From: Rahnella variigena
GTDB lineage: Bacteria > Pseudomonadota > Gammaproteobacteria > Enterobacterales > Enterobacteriaceae
Assembly (NCBI RefSeq): GCF_003610915.1
Contig: NZ_NSDJ01000002.1
Span: 124,001-188,000, forward strand
DNA: 64,000 bases
Direction of reading: 5' to 3'
Shown here: piece by piece, positions 59,551 to 64,000 of the stretch
Layout of the letters: each line of letters starts with the position of its first letter
Numbering within the stretch: position 1 is the first letter of the stretch
The notes under the pieces: model-generated
The model's database searches: none
Told to the model about the DNA's origin: nothing
The model's input: the letters and a program-made list of their open reading frames with translations, nothing else
Program-made: the position numbers and the translations under genes

Positions 59551-60387
59551 ATGATTTATATAATAGATGGCAGCATTACTTACAACCCAGATGACTGCAC
59601 TCTGGGTCATATACCCACTGAAGAGTCCGTGAGCCTCAGTATCTCGGCAGGGCGCTTGCTCGAGCGACTGTTGAATTCTGAAGGGGAGATACTGGCCCGG
59701 GATATGTTGCTGACAGAAGTATGGGATAAGTATGGTTTGCGTGGGTCGAACAGCAACCTGAATCAGTATCTGAGTATTCTGAGGAGAGTACTCGCAGGAT
59801 ACGGGTGCGATAATCTCATCATCACCATTCCTAAAATAGGGATCCGTATTAATACGGAATTAAAGATCGAGCGTGAATCGTCTCCGGTATTGATCGCGAG
59901 CGATGATAATGTGGGGGAAGGGCAAGAAAGTATTACGACTCATGAAATAAGTACTGAGACGGTTCCGCCATTGCTTCGCGAACAAGAACAAATTTCACCT
60001 AAGCCATCGTGGTCAACTCCAGGATTATTGATTGCCGCAACGATTACTGCACTGCTCGCCGGGGGAGCGGGTTGGTATTACTGGACAATTCGTTCTGCGG
60101 AACAGATGCTACCAACAACCACGATAAAGCTGGAAGGGGGTTGTGAGGCAGTGTTATTACATGGACTGGATGTTCTTGAACGTAAGTCATTAGATCAACA
60201 AATTCGGGAAATAATAAAAGAAAATAATCAGTCTTGCGATACGAGTCATCGATTTTATTTTGACAATAATACGTCATTTACCACTCATAATTATGGCAGG
60301 ACGATCCTGTCATCTTGTAAGATTGACAGCGGTGGCCACGTTATTTCATGTGATAATTTTTATTATTTAGACTGGAGAATGAATTGA
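59551..60387 (+). CDS. ToxR/CadC/MarT-like membrane-bound transcriptional regulator
   Basis: The 278-residue protein has an N-terminal OmpR-type winged helix (about residues 1-105). LTEVWDKYGLRGSNSNLNQY and LSILRRVLAGYG form the recognition region, with the wing at IITIPKIGIRIN. A polar linker, one membrane segment (LLIAATITALLAGGAGWYYW, about 160-182) and a ~90-residue periplasmic domain with several cysteines (EGGCEAV, QSCDTSH, SSCKIDS, ISCDNF) follow. This is the architecture of ToxR, CadC and MarT. The paired cysteines might sense redox state. It is followed by a FidL-like partner overlapping four bases. Composition is A+T-rich, consistent with acquired DNA. Confidence 0.88.
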   Translation: MIYIIDGSITYNPDDCTLGHIPTEESVSLSISAGRLLERLLNSEGEILARDMLLTEVWDKYGLRGSNSNLNQYLSILRRVLAGYGCDNLIITIPKIGIRINTELKIERESSPVLIASDDNVGEGQESITTHEISTETVPPLLREQEQISPKPSWSTPGLLIAATITALLAGGAGWYYWTIRSAEQMLPTTTIKLEGGCEAVLLHGLDVLERKSLDQQIREIIKENNQSCDTSHRFYFDNNTSFTTHNYGRTILSSCKIDSGGHVISCDNFYYLDWRMN

Positions 60388-60881
60388 AGCGGAATATTTT
60401 TTTAACGTTTGCTTTTGTGCTGATCTCACTTTTGTTACTACTTTTCATTGGTATTAACTATTCTGCTCAAAAAAGCGAAGTTTTTCCATTTCGTTGTTCA
60501 ACTTTTTCCCGTTATGATTTAAGTCGTAAAGAAGGAAAAAGAATTGAATTTGCTGTTACACAAGATTTGCGGTTCCAGAATGATAAAACAGGCTATCTGT
60601 TACTCAATGGACAGACAACCTTAGGAGACGATTCTATGATAGTTAACAGAAGAATCGTTCTGTCCGGCGGAAATAAGATTGACAGTGATACTTACCGCTA
60701 CAATATTAGTAATACTATCACGTCACCCACTGATACAACGCCAGACAGTATGTTCAATATGTTGCTAGCTGAACTCACGCTTGATCACTCTTATCTTCAG
60801 CTTAGTGTCGATAAGGTTGATAATAAATCTTATTTGATTGGTGGTCCGCTTTCATATTTATTTACATGTCAGCGATATTAA
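60384..60881 (+). CDS. FidL-like membrane partner of ToxR-like regulator
   Basis: The 165-residue protein has one N-terminal membrane anchor (TFAFVLISLLLLLFIGIN) and a periplasmic beta-rich domain, the layout of FidL/YqeJ/ToxS-type partners that pair with MarT/ToxR-like regulators. Translation begins at a TTG that overlaps the regulator's stop codon (TTGA), with GGAG eight bases upstream. A stabilising or co-sensing role for the partner is inferred from position. Targets are unknown; the exporter operon on the other strand is a candidate. Confidence 0.8.
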   Translation: MKRNIFLTFAFVLISLLLLLFIGINYSAQKSEVFPFRCSTFSRYDLSRKEGKRIEFAVTQDLRFQNDKTGYLLLNGQTTLGDDSMIVNRRIVLSGGNKIDSDTYRYNISNTITSPTDTTPDSMFNMLLAELTLDHSYLQLSVDKVDNKSYLIGGPLSYLFTCQRY

Positions 60882-60982
60882 AATTTAACGATCACGGGTC
60901 TTCTGGTTTTGTTGAGGCAGAAAGGTTGAAAAAATTTCTGCCGATATAAATCATTAATTATTAGGTTTTTATTCTATTTTTC

Positions 60983-61007
60983 TAAAAAAAAGCCGCTGAA
61001 CAGCGGC
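60983..61007 (-). terminator. Terminator of the exporter operon
   Basis: On the minus strand, GCCGCTG-tt-CAGCGGC is followed by eight T residues, a textbook terminator 70 bases past the DUF1795 gene. Confidence 0.92.
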
Positions 61008-61076
61008 AGCGGCAAATAGTGTTTCCAATTTTACGGCATGAAATATGATACAAAATCAGTCTTTACTCTGATTCAT

Positions 61077-61511
61077 TTACAAATTTGTTTTGAAGCTTTT
61101 CAGTGTATCTGTGAAACATTGATTATCTGCGTTTGTCAGGACAGATGATTTAGAAACTGAAAAAATTAGCAAGTCTTCCATGTTCAGCGTGAAAATAGCC
61201 TGTTTCTGGTAAGAACGAACTTTGTCTGGGCGTAAGAAACTGTAATTAATTAATATTCCTGAGGTCAGGTTGTCGCCAAGCACCACAAGTTCATAGGGTT
61301 CTTGCAACCACTCTTTCATTTTGGATTTTAAAATACTGAGCTGGCTGTCAATATATTCCTCAACGCTATTGTGATTGCCGAGACTATCACGAGAAATAGT
61401 AATCGTTGGCAGAATAGACCTCGTATCGTTCAGCGTATTCAAAGTACGCTCACAATATCCTGAAGGCAGTGTAACTACACCTTCACTAAAGCGGCAAATA
61501 TTCTTATCCAT
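61077..61511 (-). CDS. DUF1795 (DcrB/EagR-like) protein in type I exporter operon
   Basis: The 144-residue protein fits the DUF1795 family: EGVVTLPSGYCERTLNTL at the start, the core LPTITISRDSLG, a helix EEYIDSQLSILKSKMKEWL, and strands KQAIFTLNMEDLLIFSVS. Family members called EagR are chaperones that shield membrane segments of type VI effectors before secretion. Here it is last in an operon with a C39 ABC exporter and overlaps its stop by eight bases, with GGAG before the ATG. No type VI gene is visible. A chaperone or immunity role for the exporter's cargo is inference. Composition is A+T-rich. Confidence 0.75.
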   Translation of the reverse strand: MDKNICRFSEGVVTLPSGYCERTLNTLNDTRSILPTITISRDSLGNHNSVEEYIDSQLSILKSKMKEWLQEPYELVVLGDNLTSGILINYSFLRPDKVRSYQKQAIFTLNMEDLLIFSVSKSSVLTNADNQCFTDTLKSFKTNL

Positions 61512-63681
61512 GTGTTATCTCCATTTCCTTACTGTTGTCTGCACGAACGAATAATTGTTCTGCTGTGACTTCGCTGAGAGTACCGTTATGCATCATAACG
61601 ATTTTATCTGCACTACGAATCGTTTCTGGTCGATGCGCAATGATAATGCGGGTGATGTTCATACGTTTAATCGAATCGTTGATTTTCGCTTCGTTTGAAA
61701 TATCCAGGTGACTGGTCGCCTCATCCAATACAAGAATTTGTGGATCCCGGTACAGTGCGCGGGCCAATAAAATGCGTTGTAGCTGCCCCCCCGAAAGAAA
61801 CGAACCCATATCGCCAACCAGACTCTGATAATTCATAGGCATTTTCATTATATCGCCATGAATTTGTGCCAGGCGTGCGACGCGGGTAATTTTGGCGTGA
61901 TCGGGTTCGTTATCAAAGAAGCTAATATTTTCGCTGATAGATCCTGAAAAAAGTATGTCATCTTGCATCACGCAGCCTATCCGATCGCGATGATGAGAAA
62001 GCCCGGTTTGTTTTATATCGATACCTCCTACAGTAATAGTACCGCTCTCAGGATGTAATAAACCAAGGATGACTTTCGCTAACGTTGTCTTACCCTGACC
62101 AGATGGACCGACAATCGCTATACTTTCGCCCGCACGAATGGTCAGGTTGGCACCGTCAATAACCCAGGCATCAGTCGAACCATAGCGGAACTTAATGTCT
62201 GATAATACGATATCCTGTGCTGGCTGGTGCTCGTCGGTGGTATGCACGAGACCCGGGCTGGCTTCAGAGCTGGCCTCTGTTTCAGACAGGACGATATCTG
62301 CAAGTCGTTCTCCGTGCATTCGCAGCATACGAAAATCTATTATCGCATTGATTAAACCTGCACCACGGCTCATAAACTGATCGGAAAAACTAATGAATGC
62401 CGTGAGCATACCTGCAGAGAAATTCCCATCGAGCACCTGAAGCGCGGCTAACCAAACCAGGGCTACTCGCCCTACAGAAGTGAGTAAGCCTTGTGCGGAG
62501 CCGAACAGAATGTTGAGCTTCTGCATGACAATGCCTTTGTTGGTGCTGTCCACCATCAAATTCATATAGGCTGCCAGTCGGGGTACCTGCTTATTATTCG
62601 TTTTGACAGCCTGAATGCCGCGAAGTGTTTCCAGTAATGATGACTGCGTGCGTGCCGAACTGATAATTTGCTCTTCATTGGCGCGGCGAACCGGGTCATA
62701 AGCCATGAATCGCAGCAGGGCATAAACAACAAACAAGCCAATGACTAACCAGGCAAGTTTAGCGTTGTAAATAAACAACATTACTACTGTCACGATTGAC
62801 ATCACACCATCGAGAACCGTGCTGATAAATCGGGTGGTGAGAGTGCTTTGTATCGTGTTTAATGAGGCGTAGCGCGAAAGAATATCGCCCACATGACGCG
62901 ATTCAAACCAGTCAAGAGGAAGCTTCAGCATATGGTGGCAGACATTAATGGTCCATTGCACACTCAATTGACTGGAGAACCAACTCATTACCCATGAGCG
63001 TAGTGCTGAGATAATGGTCTGAAACAGGGCAATCATCATGAAACCGACGCCAAGTAGCGTTAGTAATGAATAATCGGCAGAAACTAGCACCATATCCATG
63101 ACCCATTGCATAAAGAATGGGGATAAAACACCGAACAGCTCCAACGCTACCGACAAAATAAGAACCTGAACGAAAGCGGACTTTACCCCTGTCACGCTTC
63201 CAACAAGTTTTCTCATTGAAATCCGCGCTTTCTCTTCTTTCACTTCAAAGGTGGAGGAGGGCACAAGTTCCAATGCGACACCGGTAAAAGTATTCGATGC
63301 TTCTTTAAACGTGACCTCACGAATGCCACGCGCGGGATCGTGAAGAGTGATCTTGTTACCACGCACTTTCTTAAGTACGACAAAATGGTTCAATTCCCAA
63401 TGTAAAATACAAGGGGTACGGAGTTTCGACAGCTCTTCAAGGTCAACGCGCAGTGCACGCGAGCTCATATTCAGTTGCTGCGCAATGCCGATGACATCGG
63501 AAAGCGTCGCCCCTTTAAGCGATGTAGAAAATTGCCGGCGCAGGGTGATCATATCGATCTCATGCCCGTGATAGTTGGCAATCATACCCAGACAGGCTAA
63601 TCCGCATTCGGCCGCTTGCGACTGACGGATTAAAGGCAGACGGTTAAACCATTTAAAATTGAGTTTCTCTAATAACAACAC
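61504..63681 (-). CDS. Bacteriocin-type ABC exporter with C39 peptidase domain (CvaB-like)
   Basis: The 725-residue protein has three parts. The C39 cysteine peptidase (about residues 1-140) has C26 in QAAECGLACL, H99 in WELNHFVVL and D115 in LHDPARG, so all three catalytic residues are present and it should cut double-glycine leaders. A six-segment membrane domain follows (about 165-440). The ATPase has Walker A GPSGQGKTTL, signature LSGGQLQR and Walker B ILVLDEATSHLD. The start is a GTG at 63681 with AAGG eight bases upstream. It sits between a HlyD-type adaptor and a DUF1795 gene. No double-glycine precursor gene was found within the window. Confidence 0.94.
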   Translation of the reverse strand: MLLLEKLNFKWFNRLPLIRQSQAAECGLACLGMIANYHGHEIDMITLRRQFSTSLKGATLSDVIGIAQQLNMSSRALRVDLEELSKLRTPCILHWELNHFVVLKKVRGNKITLHDPARGIREVTFKEASNTFTGVALELVPSSTFEVKEEKARISMRKLVGSVTGVKSAFVQVLILSVALELFGVLSPFFMQWVMDMVLVSADYSLLTLLGVGFMMIALFQTIISALRSWVMSWFSSQLSVQWTINVCHHMLKLPLDWFESRHVGDILSRYASLNTIQSTLTTRFISTVLDGVMSIVTVVMLFIYNAKLAWLVIGLFVVYALLRFMAYDPVRRANEEQIISSARTQSSLLETLRGIQAVKTNNKQVPRLAAYMNLMVDSTNKGIVMQKLNILFGSAQGLLTSVGRVALVWLAALQVLDGNFSAGMLTAFISFSDQFMSRGAGLINAIIDFRMLRMHGERLADIVLSETEASSEASPGLVHTTDEHQPAQDIVLSDIKFRYGSTDAWVIDGANLTIRAGESIAIVGPSGQGKTTLAKVILGLLHPESGTITVGGIDIKQTGLSHHRDRIGCVMQDDILFSGSISENISFFDNEPDHAKITRVARLAQIHGDIMKMPMNYQSLVGDMGSFLSGGQLQRILLARALYRDPQILVLDEATSHLDISNEAKINDSIKRMNITRIIIAHRPETIRSADKIVMMHNGTLSEVTAEQLFVRADNSKEMEITHG

Positions 63682-63697
63682 AGAACAGACCTTCTAA

Positions 63698-64000
63698 TCA
63701 GAGCGAAATTTTGTGACCCAGCGCGAAAATCGGCTCAAGTACCCACTCGTAAAGACGACGTTTGTCGACGATAAAATCGGCGTCCAGCGCCATTCCCGGT
63801 TTTAGTGGCTCGTTTTGCATATAGGCTTTAATAGATTGTTTATCTAATGCCACCAGTACACGGTACTGTTGTTCTTCAACATTGTTTTTTCCGGTGAGCG
63901 TGGCGACTTCCTGCGGAGAAAGTGCTGTACGAGAGACCTCAATGACTTTTCCGTATTGCTGACCAAACTTCTGATAGGGAAAGGCTTTATAACGCAGTAC
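63698..64000 (-). CDS. HlyD-family secretion adaptor (CvaA-like), C-terminal part
   Basis: The last ~100 codons of a membrane-fusion protein run off the window edge. The translation includes YKAFPYQKFGQQYGKVIEVS, a variable stretch, QQYRVLVALDKQSIKAY, LKPGMALDADFIVDKRRLYE and the terminal WVLEPIFALGHKISL, typical of CvaA/HlyD C-termini. It ends 17 bases before the exporter GTG, so the two are cotranscribed and form the inner-membrane part of a type I secretion system. A TolC-type channel is not in the window. Confidence 0.92.
   Translation of the reverse strand, partial: VLRYKAFPYQKFGQQYGKVIEVSRTALSPQEVATLTGKNNVEEQQYRVLVALDKQSIKAYMQNEPLKPGMALDADFIVDKRRLYEWVLEPIFALGHKISL

Follow-up and report, generated by a model that had tools for sequence, protein, structure and literature searches.

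How does a gene of a family known for chaperoning type VI secretion effectors come to be the last gene of an operon for peptide export? The question is raised by the end of a 64,000-nucleotide stretch of the Rahnella variigena genome, here called the window (C2:124001-188000 in a two-contig, 5.5-Mb assembly; contig C2 is NZ_NSDJ01000002.1). On the minus strand at the window end, the list of open reading frames (ORFs) and Pfam matches give, in gene order, an HlyD-type adaptor (C-terminal 100 codons, 63698..64000), a 725-residue C39-peptidase ATP-binding cassette (ABC) exporter with a GTG start (61504..63681) and, as the final gene, a 144-residue DcrB/DUF1795 protein of the Eag family (61077..61511). 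An intrinsic-terminator-like stem-loop with eight T lies just 3' of dcrB (minus strand, 60992..61013; one found against a shuffle mean of 0.1), and the exporter gene and dcrB share eight bases (61504-61511). This order, overlap included, was described in a first-pass annotation of the window and is borne out by the ORFs, Pfam and the stem-loop. We consider it likely that DcrB is an Eag-family chaperone from Rhs/type VI stock that was recruited to a C39 exporter, and that the exported peptides form a fimbria-aided, Cdz-like two-peptide bacteriocin.

As the annotation had proposed for the 144-residue protein, DcrB matches the DUF1795 family, PF08786, over the entire profile (positions 1-127 of 127, 57.4 bits against a gathering cut-off of 27.2, E = 2e-15). 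The same gene was recovered by a whole-genome search, while NCBIfam has no family for it and PHROGs gave no match. No hydrophobic window was found in its sequence, and the protein is therefore probably cytosolic. An AlphaFold2 model of the monomer, with a predicted local distance difference test score (pLDDT) of 90.6, has the SciW/EagT6 fold, which is also common to Mog1, TplEi and PsbP proteins. Its best match is SciW, either alone or with the Rhs1 transmembrane domain, and the matched SciW crystal complex contains the effector transmembrane segment. Because its neighbor is the C39 exporter rather than a prePAAR effector, we class DcrB as an Eag-family protein and not as a type VI effector chaperone.

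The EagT6 residues that touch the client, as listed in excerpts of the paper by Ahmad et al (PMC7773334), were transferred onto DcrB sequences via the printed alignment. In 80 rows (the window protein counted twice, as win and P0001; P0076 partial, 129 residues; P0079 and P0080 excluded), EagT6 residues Q58, Q102 and F104 are identical throughout, I113 is Ile in all 80 and S41 is Ser in 79. Q58, Q102 and S41 are residues by which EagT6 grips the backbones of helices. Among the other contact positions, I22 is replaced by Leu in 78/80 rows, the knob residue L66 by Met in 69/80, I24 by Thr in 75/80 and V39 by Thr in 78/80, and the position of S37 holds Pro or Thr. Rhs-linked rows have the polar grip and F104 in common and a different hydrophobic lining, and all five best-kept contact residues are absent from the genome's own lipoprotein DcrB. 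This pattern suggests that the same grip on a helix was retained with an altered lining, as would be expected for a new client.

The operon continues into the stretch that follows the window (L003; an L003 coordinate plus 60000 gives the window scale), with start codons upstream of the window edge taken from the mechanical ORF list. The whole HlyD-type gene encodes 419 residues (L003:3698-4957), and beyond it the minus strand carries genes for TolC (L003:4984-6327), a response regulator (L003:6343-7023), a fimbrial adhesin with a pilin domain (PF00419; L003:7068-8198), an usher (PF00577 with PF13954/PF13953; L003:8134-10722), a PapD-type chaperone (PF00345/PF02753; L003:10750-11547), a pilin (PF00419/PF16970; L003:11548-12078), a 73-residue leader peptide (L003:12176-12397) and a 105-residue glycine-zipper leader peptide with a GTG start (L003:12408-12725). 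By Pfam, all parts of a chaperone-usher fimbria are present. The series thus comprises 11 co-directional genes, from the 105-residue peptide to DcrB (L003:12725 down to 1077), and because the listed ORFs are at most 97 bases apart, a single transcript is likely. Two regulator genes lie upstream on the opposite strand. The exporter is a C39-peptidase ABC exporter by its domain content (Peptidase_C39, ABC_membrane and ABC_tran). The earlier label of a CvaA/CvaB-type system is fair as to architecture, although among the 25 listed NCBIfam models, of 193 that matched the ABC protein, none reaches its cut-off. The complete fimbria, TolC, response regulator and second small leader peptide go beyond what that annotation had described.

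The 105-residue peptide has the leader MRELTSFETQNVSGAG, ending in VSGA, and the 73-residue peptide has the leader MRELNTKEIEDVSGG, ending in VSGG. A hydrophobic cargo with a double-glycine leader, as the annotation had anticipated, is therefore encoded, in the form of two peptides ~11 kb upstream of DcrB; that it needs shielding is something we infer. The mature 105-residue peptide contains two hydrophobic stretches and 10 GxxxG motifs, compared with a shuffle mean of 3.4 (0 of 2000 shuffles as high), and its model is a hydrophobic, glycine-zipper pair of helices (residues 15-47 and 52-96; pLDDT 78.7). According to excerpts of PMC5380434, Cdz-like proteins have 60-151 residues and a leader ending in G[G/A/S], as both peptides do, and have a polar C terminus and Pro or charged residues that flank but never interrupt the zippers. 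The 105-residue peptide has the GxxxG enrichment and a polar tail, but one Asp lies inside the second glycine-rich stretch, so the zipper pattern fits imperfectly. Its matches number 64 proteins at 67-99% identity. The Rahnella and Pantoea vagans versions are 81% identical in this peptide, 75% in the other peptide, 71% in DcrB and 88% in the exporter. PHROGs gave the 105-residue peptide a weak match to phrog_32251 (E = 1.3e-4), a family of unknown function there; NCBIfam has no family for it, and the match of the 73-residue peptide's leader is below threshold. Descent of the cargo from Rhs transmembrane segments was considered and rejected: the profile-profile probability was 6.6 with one aligned column, leaving a likeness of kind, as glycine-rich hydrophobic helices, with descent unsupported.

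The identical gene order occurs in P. vagans C9-1 pPag1 (L007, where the regulator is annotated as two pieces), Pantoea sp. Lij88 (L041) and loci L047, L048, L049, L052 and L053. The three-gene order that the annotation had suggested seeking in other genomes is accordingly present in many Pantoea records, with DcrB after the ABC gene also in L051 and L062, and is not a chance insertion in one strain. In a plasmid collection, HlyD at at least 80% identity was found in 38 records, full-length operon-type DcrB in 37 and the 105-residue peptide in 39. Comparison of the accession lists places all three together in the same 37 of the 38 records; the strains are related, and the counts thus lack independence. 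DcrB is inherited along with exporter and cargo in these plasmids. The 38th record, NZ_CP038855 (L135), lacks both DcrB and the 105-residue peptide and keeps the exporter, TolC, the regulators and the FidL pair; its sole fimbrial genes are on the other strand, outside the exporter series. The two leftover plasmid records with the 105-residue peptide are relics. Relics L042, L133 and L134 are without the genes for fimbria and exporter and without the 5' portion of dcrB, and L042 has a stop in the leader of the 105-residue peptide gene.

A scan of genome contigs by HlyD alignment yielded 74 loci, in which DcrB was then sought with a profile. A tblastn search with the window DcrB overlooked the L136 and L138 genes, so failure to find DcrB with a single sequence carries little weight; across the 74 loci, its absence is judged from the profile. 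DcrB was detected in nine loci: the gene follows the ABC gene in L046, L047, L048, L049, L051, L052, L053 and L062, and in L059 (Erwinia oleae) it closes a series of different gene order. Nine scan loci have HlyD at at least 66% identity, eight of them with DcrB; in the ninth, L050, neither cargo nor fimbria was found in the series either, whereas the exporter, TolC and the regulators are kept. The exporter tree places L050 together with NZ_CP038855, so a single shared loss of cargo, in-series fimbria and DcrB is likely. The 105-residue peptide family is present in 14/74 loci, the usher in 13/74 and both in 12/74. DcrB accompanies the peptide family in seven of the 14 loci, and a recognizable 73-residue peptide is found in the same seven (L047, L048, L049, L052, L053, L059 and L062), a coincidence that distance alone may explain. 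In two more distant exporter operons, L062 (Erwinia endophytica) and L051 (Enterobacter sp.), dcrB likewise follows the ABC gene. L051 has no nearby fimbrial match and encodes another glycine-zipper leader peptide, of different sequence, on the opposite strand, which argues that the chaperone gene accompanies exporter and peptide and not the fimbria. The Pantoea plasmids L136 and L138 (HlyD identity 48% and 47%) carry an ABC gene, then a PF08786 gene, then a glycine-zipper leader peptide. A blastn search of E. coli genomes with the DcrB-ABC-HlyD stretch gave no match.

Matches to the DcrB family occur in 47 of 295 genomes of the bacterial family. We fetched 29 of the 59 listed matches (the window's excluded) with their neighbors, mostly higher-scoring ones, and found rhs adjoining 27 and an exporter adjoining two, L009 and L011, which are from the same genomes as L062 and L051. 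Among the 20 lowest-ranking plasmid rows (H61-H80), seven were opened and rhs lies beside DcrB in all seven. The Rhs partners of the nearest relatives of DcrB have glycine-rich hydrophobic N termini. Trees were built from 17 of the 80 DcrB protein matches plus locus rows, after dropping L009 and L011 as duplicates of L062 and L051, and L020, which has a stop. A first tree of 55 rows required two context changes, and two very long rows distorted it: the Rhs-linked L045 and the exporter-linked L059. With both left out, the 21 exporter-linked rows of the 53-row tree form one clade (99/97) within the Rhs-linked rows when rooted on L043/L044; this outgroup is itself Rhs-linked, and the direction of transfer depends on that rooting. 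Tree and fold together uphold the kinship to Eag chaperones of type VI effectors that the annotation had pointed to. The branching order of the ABC tree, L062, L051 and then the main clade, is that of the DcrB tree, which fits joint inheritance; the exporter tree of 25 rows requires four changes of DcrB label. L059, which has no reliable place, and L136 and L138, whose DcrBs are in no tree, may reflect either an ancient recruitment that has since diverged or a separate, second one.

Based on these data, we propose that the 11-gene operon serves both to build a chaperone-usher fimbria and to export its two small peptides with double-glycine leaders, the latter by a dedicated type I system of the C39 type that consists of the ABC protein, HlyD and its own TolC. 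In the cytosol, a claw-shaped DcrB dimer would grip the hydrophobic helices of a prepeptide, keeping them off the inner membrane and unaggregated until handover to the exporter. The likeliest client is the 105-residue prepeptide because of its two glycine-zipper helices, and the co-occurrence of DcrB with the 73-residue family keeps the second peptide a possible client. The C39 domain would then take the leader and cut after Gly-Ala or Gly-Gly, and the peptide would be secreted. Outside, the two peptides most likely form a bacteriocin of the Cdz-like, contact-dependent kind, and the fimbria would draw cells together. The holding role of DcrB is the best-supported part of this proposal, and we are less sure of what the peptides do, whether as bacteriocin or as structural surface protein.

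Three observations weigh against parts of the proposal. The cargo is conserved rather than polymorphic, and no immunity gene was identified near the operon: in the 1 kb that precedes the peptide genes, no small ORF is shared by more than 5 of 8 loci, and none is convincing. Both points bear on the bacteriocin. In addition, peptide, exporter and fimbria occur in several gene orders without recognizable DcrB (L054, L056, L058, L061 and L137). Erwinia typographi, Paraburkholderia, Mangrovibacter and Andreprevotia are among the seven scan loci with the 105-residue family but no DcrB; in L054 and L061, a second leader peptide, of different sequence, is present. For Burkholderia ubonensis (L137), the peptides, the exporter and a fimbria are present and no DcrB is annotated. 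The peptide gene of L057 is broken. The first two points would suit an alternative in which DcrB is a chaperone as proposed, while the peptides are self-assembling glycine-zipper proteins of the surface or fimbria, serving adhesion or biofilm formation. Also in its favor, the fimbrial gene set within the same operon is complete, and of the 14 scan loci that have the 105-residue family, 12 have an usher. However, leader, exporter and size match class II microcins and Cdz proteins, excerpts of PMC5380434 record Cdz-like clusters near fimbrial genes as putative contact-dependent systems, and L051 has a glycine-zipper leader peptide, exporter and DcrB without fimbrial matches. We regard this alternative as rather unlikely, though it deserves to be taken seriously.

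A second alternative, raised by the first-pass annotation, is that DcrB is a new immunity protein that binds and neutralizes peptide re-entering the producer. The lack of an evident immunity gene leaves room for such a role, but DcrB has no hydrophobic segment, whereas a glycine-zipper peptide is expected to act at the membrane. In sequence, it is close to chaperones of rhs loci, the residues that it retains are the helix-gripping ones, and dcrB is missing from related peptide-export systems. For immunity, the FidL-like membrane protein next to the operon is no worse a candidate. Immunity is therefore not supported as the function of DcrB, and we judge it improbable. Least probable of all is that DcrB is an orphan Eag chaperone which sits in the operon incidentally and whose client is a type VI effector encoded at another place in the genome: Eag proteins are known to serve such effectors (excerpts of PMC7773334) and two TssK genes (C2:262118 and 479392) indicate that type VI machinery exists, but one Rhs N-terminus query gave a single weak PAAR-region match with no prePAAR or transmembrane N terminus (other effector classes unsearched), the adjacency of DcrB and the ABC gene is conserved across Pantoea, and the exporter and DcrB trees agree. 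Both TssK genes are on the window's contig and probably belong to two type VI loci.

The components of the operon are of known kinds, and their combination appears to be new. Export of colicin V and other class II microcins (CvaAB-TolC) uses a C39 ABC protein, HlyD and TolC with double-glycine leaders; the Rahnella operon adds a fimbria, a response regulator, its own TolC and an Eag-family gene. DcrB resembles the Eag chaperones SciW and EagT6 (excerpts of PMC7773334) in family, fold, Q58/Q102/S41 and F104, but differs in its changed lining and in pairing with a type I exporter and leader peptides instead of a PAAR effector, with a cargo that shows no profile homology to Rhs segments. Caulobacter Cdz and Cdz-like clusters have, as here, two small glycine-zipper leader peptides beside a type I exporter, and fimbrial genes were noted near many Cdz-like clusters, with Erwinia sp. 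named (excerpts of PMC5380434). In contrast, the Rahnella operon has an in-series chaperone-usher fimbria, its own TolC and an Eag-family gene, and a CdzI-like immunity gene was not identified. Putative class II microcins with exporters were described from the same genera, Pantoea and Erwinia, and their leader peptides were screened in E. coli (PMC13174018, in excerpts); the words fimbria and chaperone do not occur in the main text of that paper. PMC13129497, in excerpts, places DcrB/DUF1795 among type VI chaperones, and in the available text of PMC11925235 the term type I secretion occurs solely in the reference list. Among the matches listed from the open-licence literature, none joined DUF1795/Eag proteins to type I export, concerned the Pantoea operon or described a cytosolic chaperone dedicated to an exporter of double-glycine peptides.

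Convergent to the operon, on the plus strand, are a FidL-like membrane protein with a TTG start (60384..60881) and the regulator paired with it (59551..60387). For this pair, which had been annotated as ToxR/FidL-like, the FidL-like half is confirmed (PF15941, 50.1 bits), and ToxR-like was that annotation's own label for an ORF whose Pantoea homologs are annotated as winged helix-turn-helix proteins. Homologs of the pair are found beside the operon or its remains in nine loci including this one, and the pair persists even where the operon is deleted (L042); a search for homologs found none in L051 and L062. Pantoea copies of the operon keep the FidL-like gene as a neighbor. The pair is a possible regulator or immunity candidate. 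The guanine-plus-cytosine (GC) content is 43% at 60001-64000 compared with 50-58% in the window's remaining 4-kb steps, and 34-48% per 1-kb step across the operon and its upstream flank. Of 14 genomes searched in the genus, only the one that contains the window gave a DcrB match, as fits an accessory island. The island that the annotation expected to continue past 64000 does so, with an operon that extends to 11 genes. Further upstream, a very large plus-strand frame of near-identical repeats (L003:16146-20000, continuing), with 64-69% GC in surroundings of 34-48%, lies beside an OmpA-like gene; it resembles a BapA-type giant adhesin, and long minus-strand ORFs within the repeats are probably artefacts of the repeats. 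When L003:12726-13746 was compared with the matching region in seven Pantoea loci, a 60-85-base stretch shortly 5' of the 105-residue peptide gene aligned in many of the listed pairwise comparisons, without a common ORF; L048 aligned with none among the comparisons listed.

Type VI and type I secretion are usually treated apart. Service of an Eag chaperone to a C39 exporter, if real, would mean that the role of Eag chaperones is defined by hydrophobic helices and not by the type VI machine. We suggest tentatively that a chaperone of type VI transmembrane helices moved at least once, and perhaps twice, into type I export, where it became the dedicated cytosolic holder for a double-glycine peptide exporter, and that the operon is a fimbria-coupled contact weapon, supplying both adhesion and a glycine-zipper bacteriocin. 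Because natural relatives have lost cargo, fimbria and chaperone yet keep the exporter, it offers a compact test bed for asking whether pili and contact-dependent peptides work jointly. If the proposal is true, some class II microcin or Cdz-like export may require a holder protein that present screens omit, and a heterologous test of such peptides without the holder could read as inactive. The reading suggests that greasy, glycine-rich peptides need a protein to hold them before they leave the cell.

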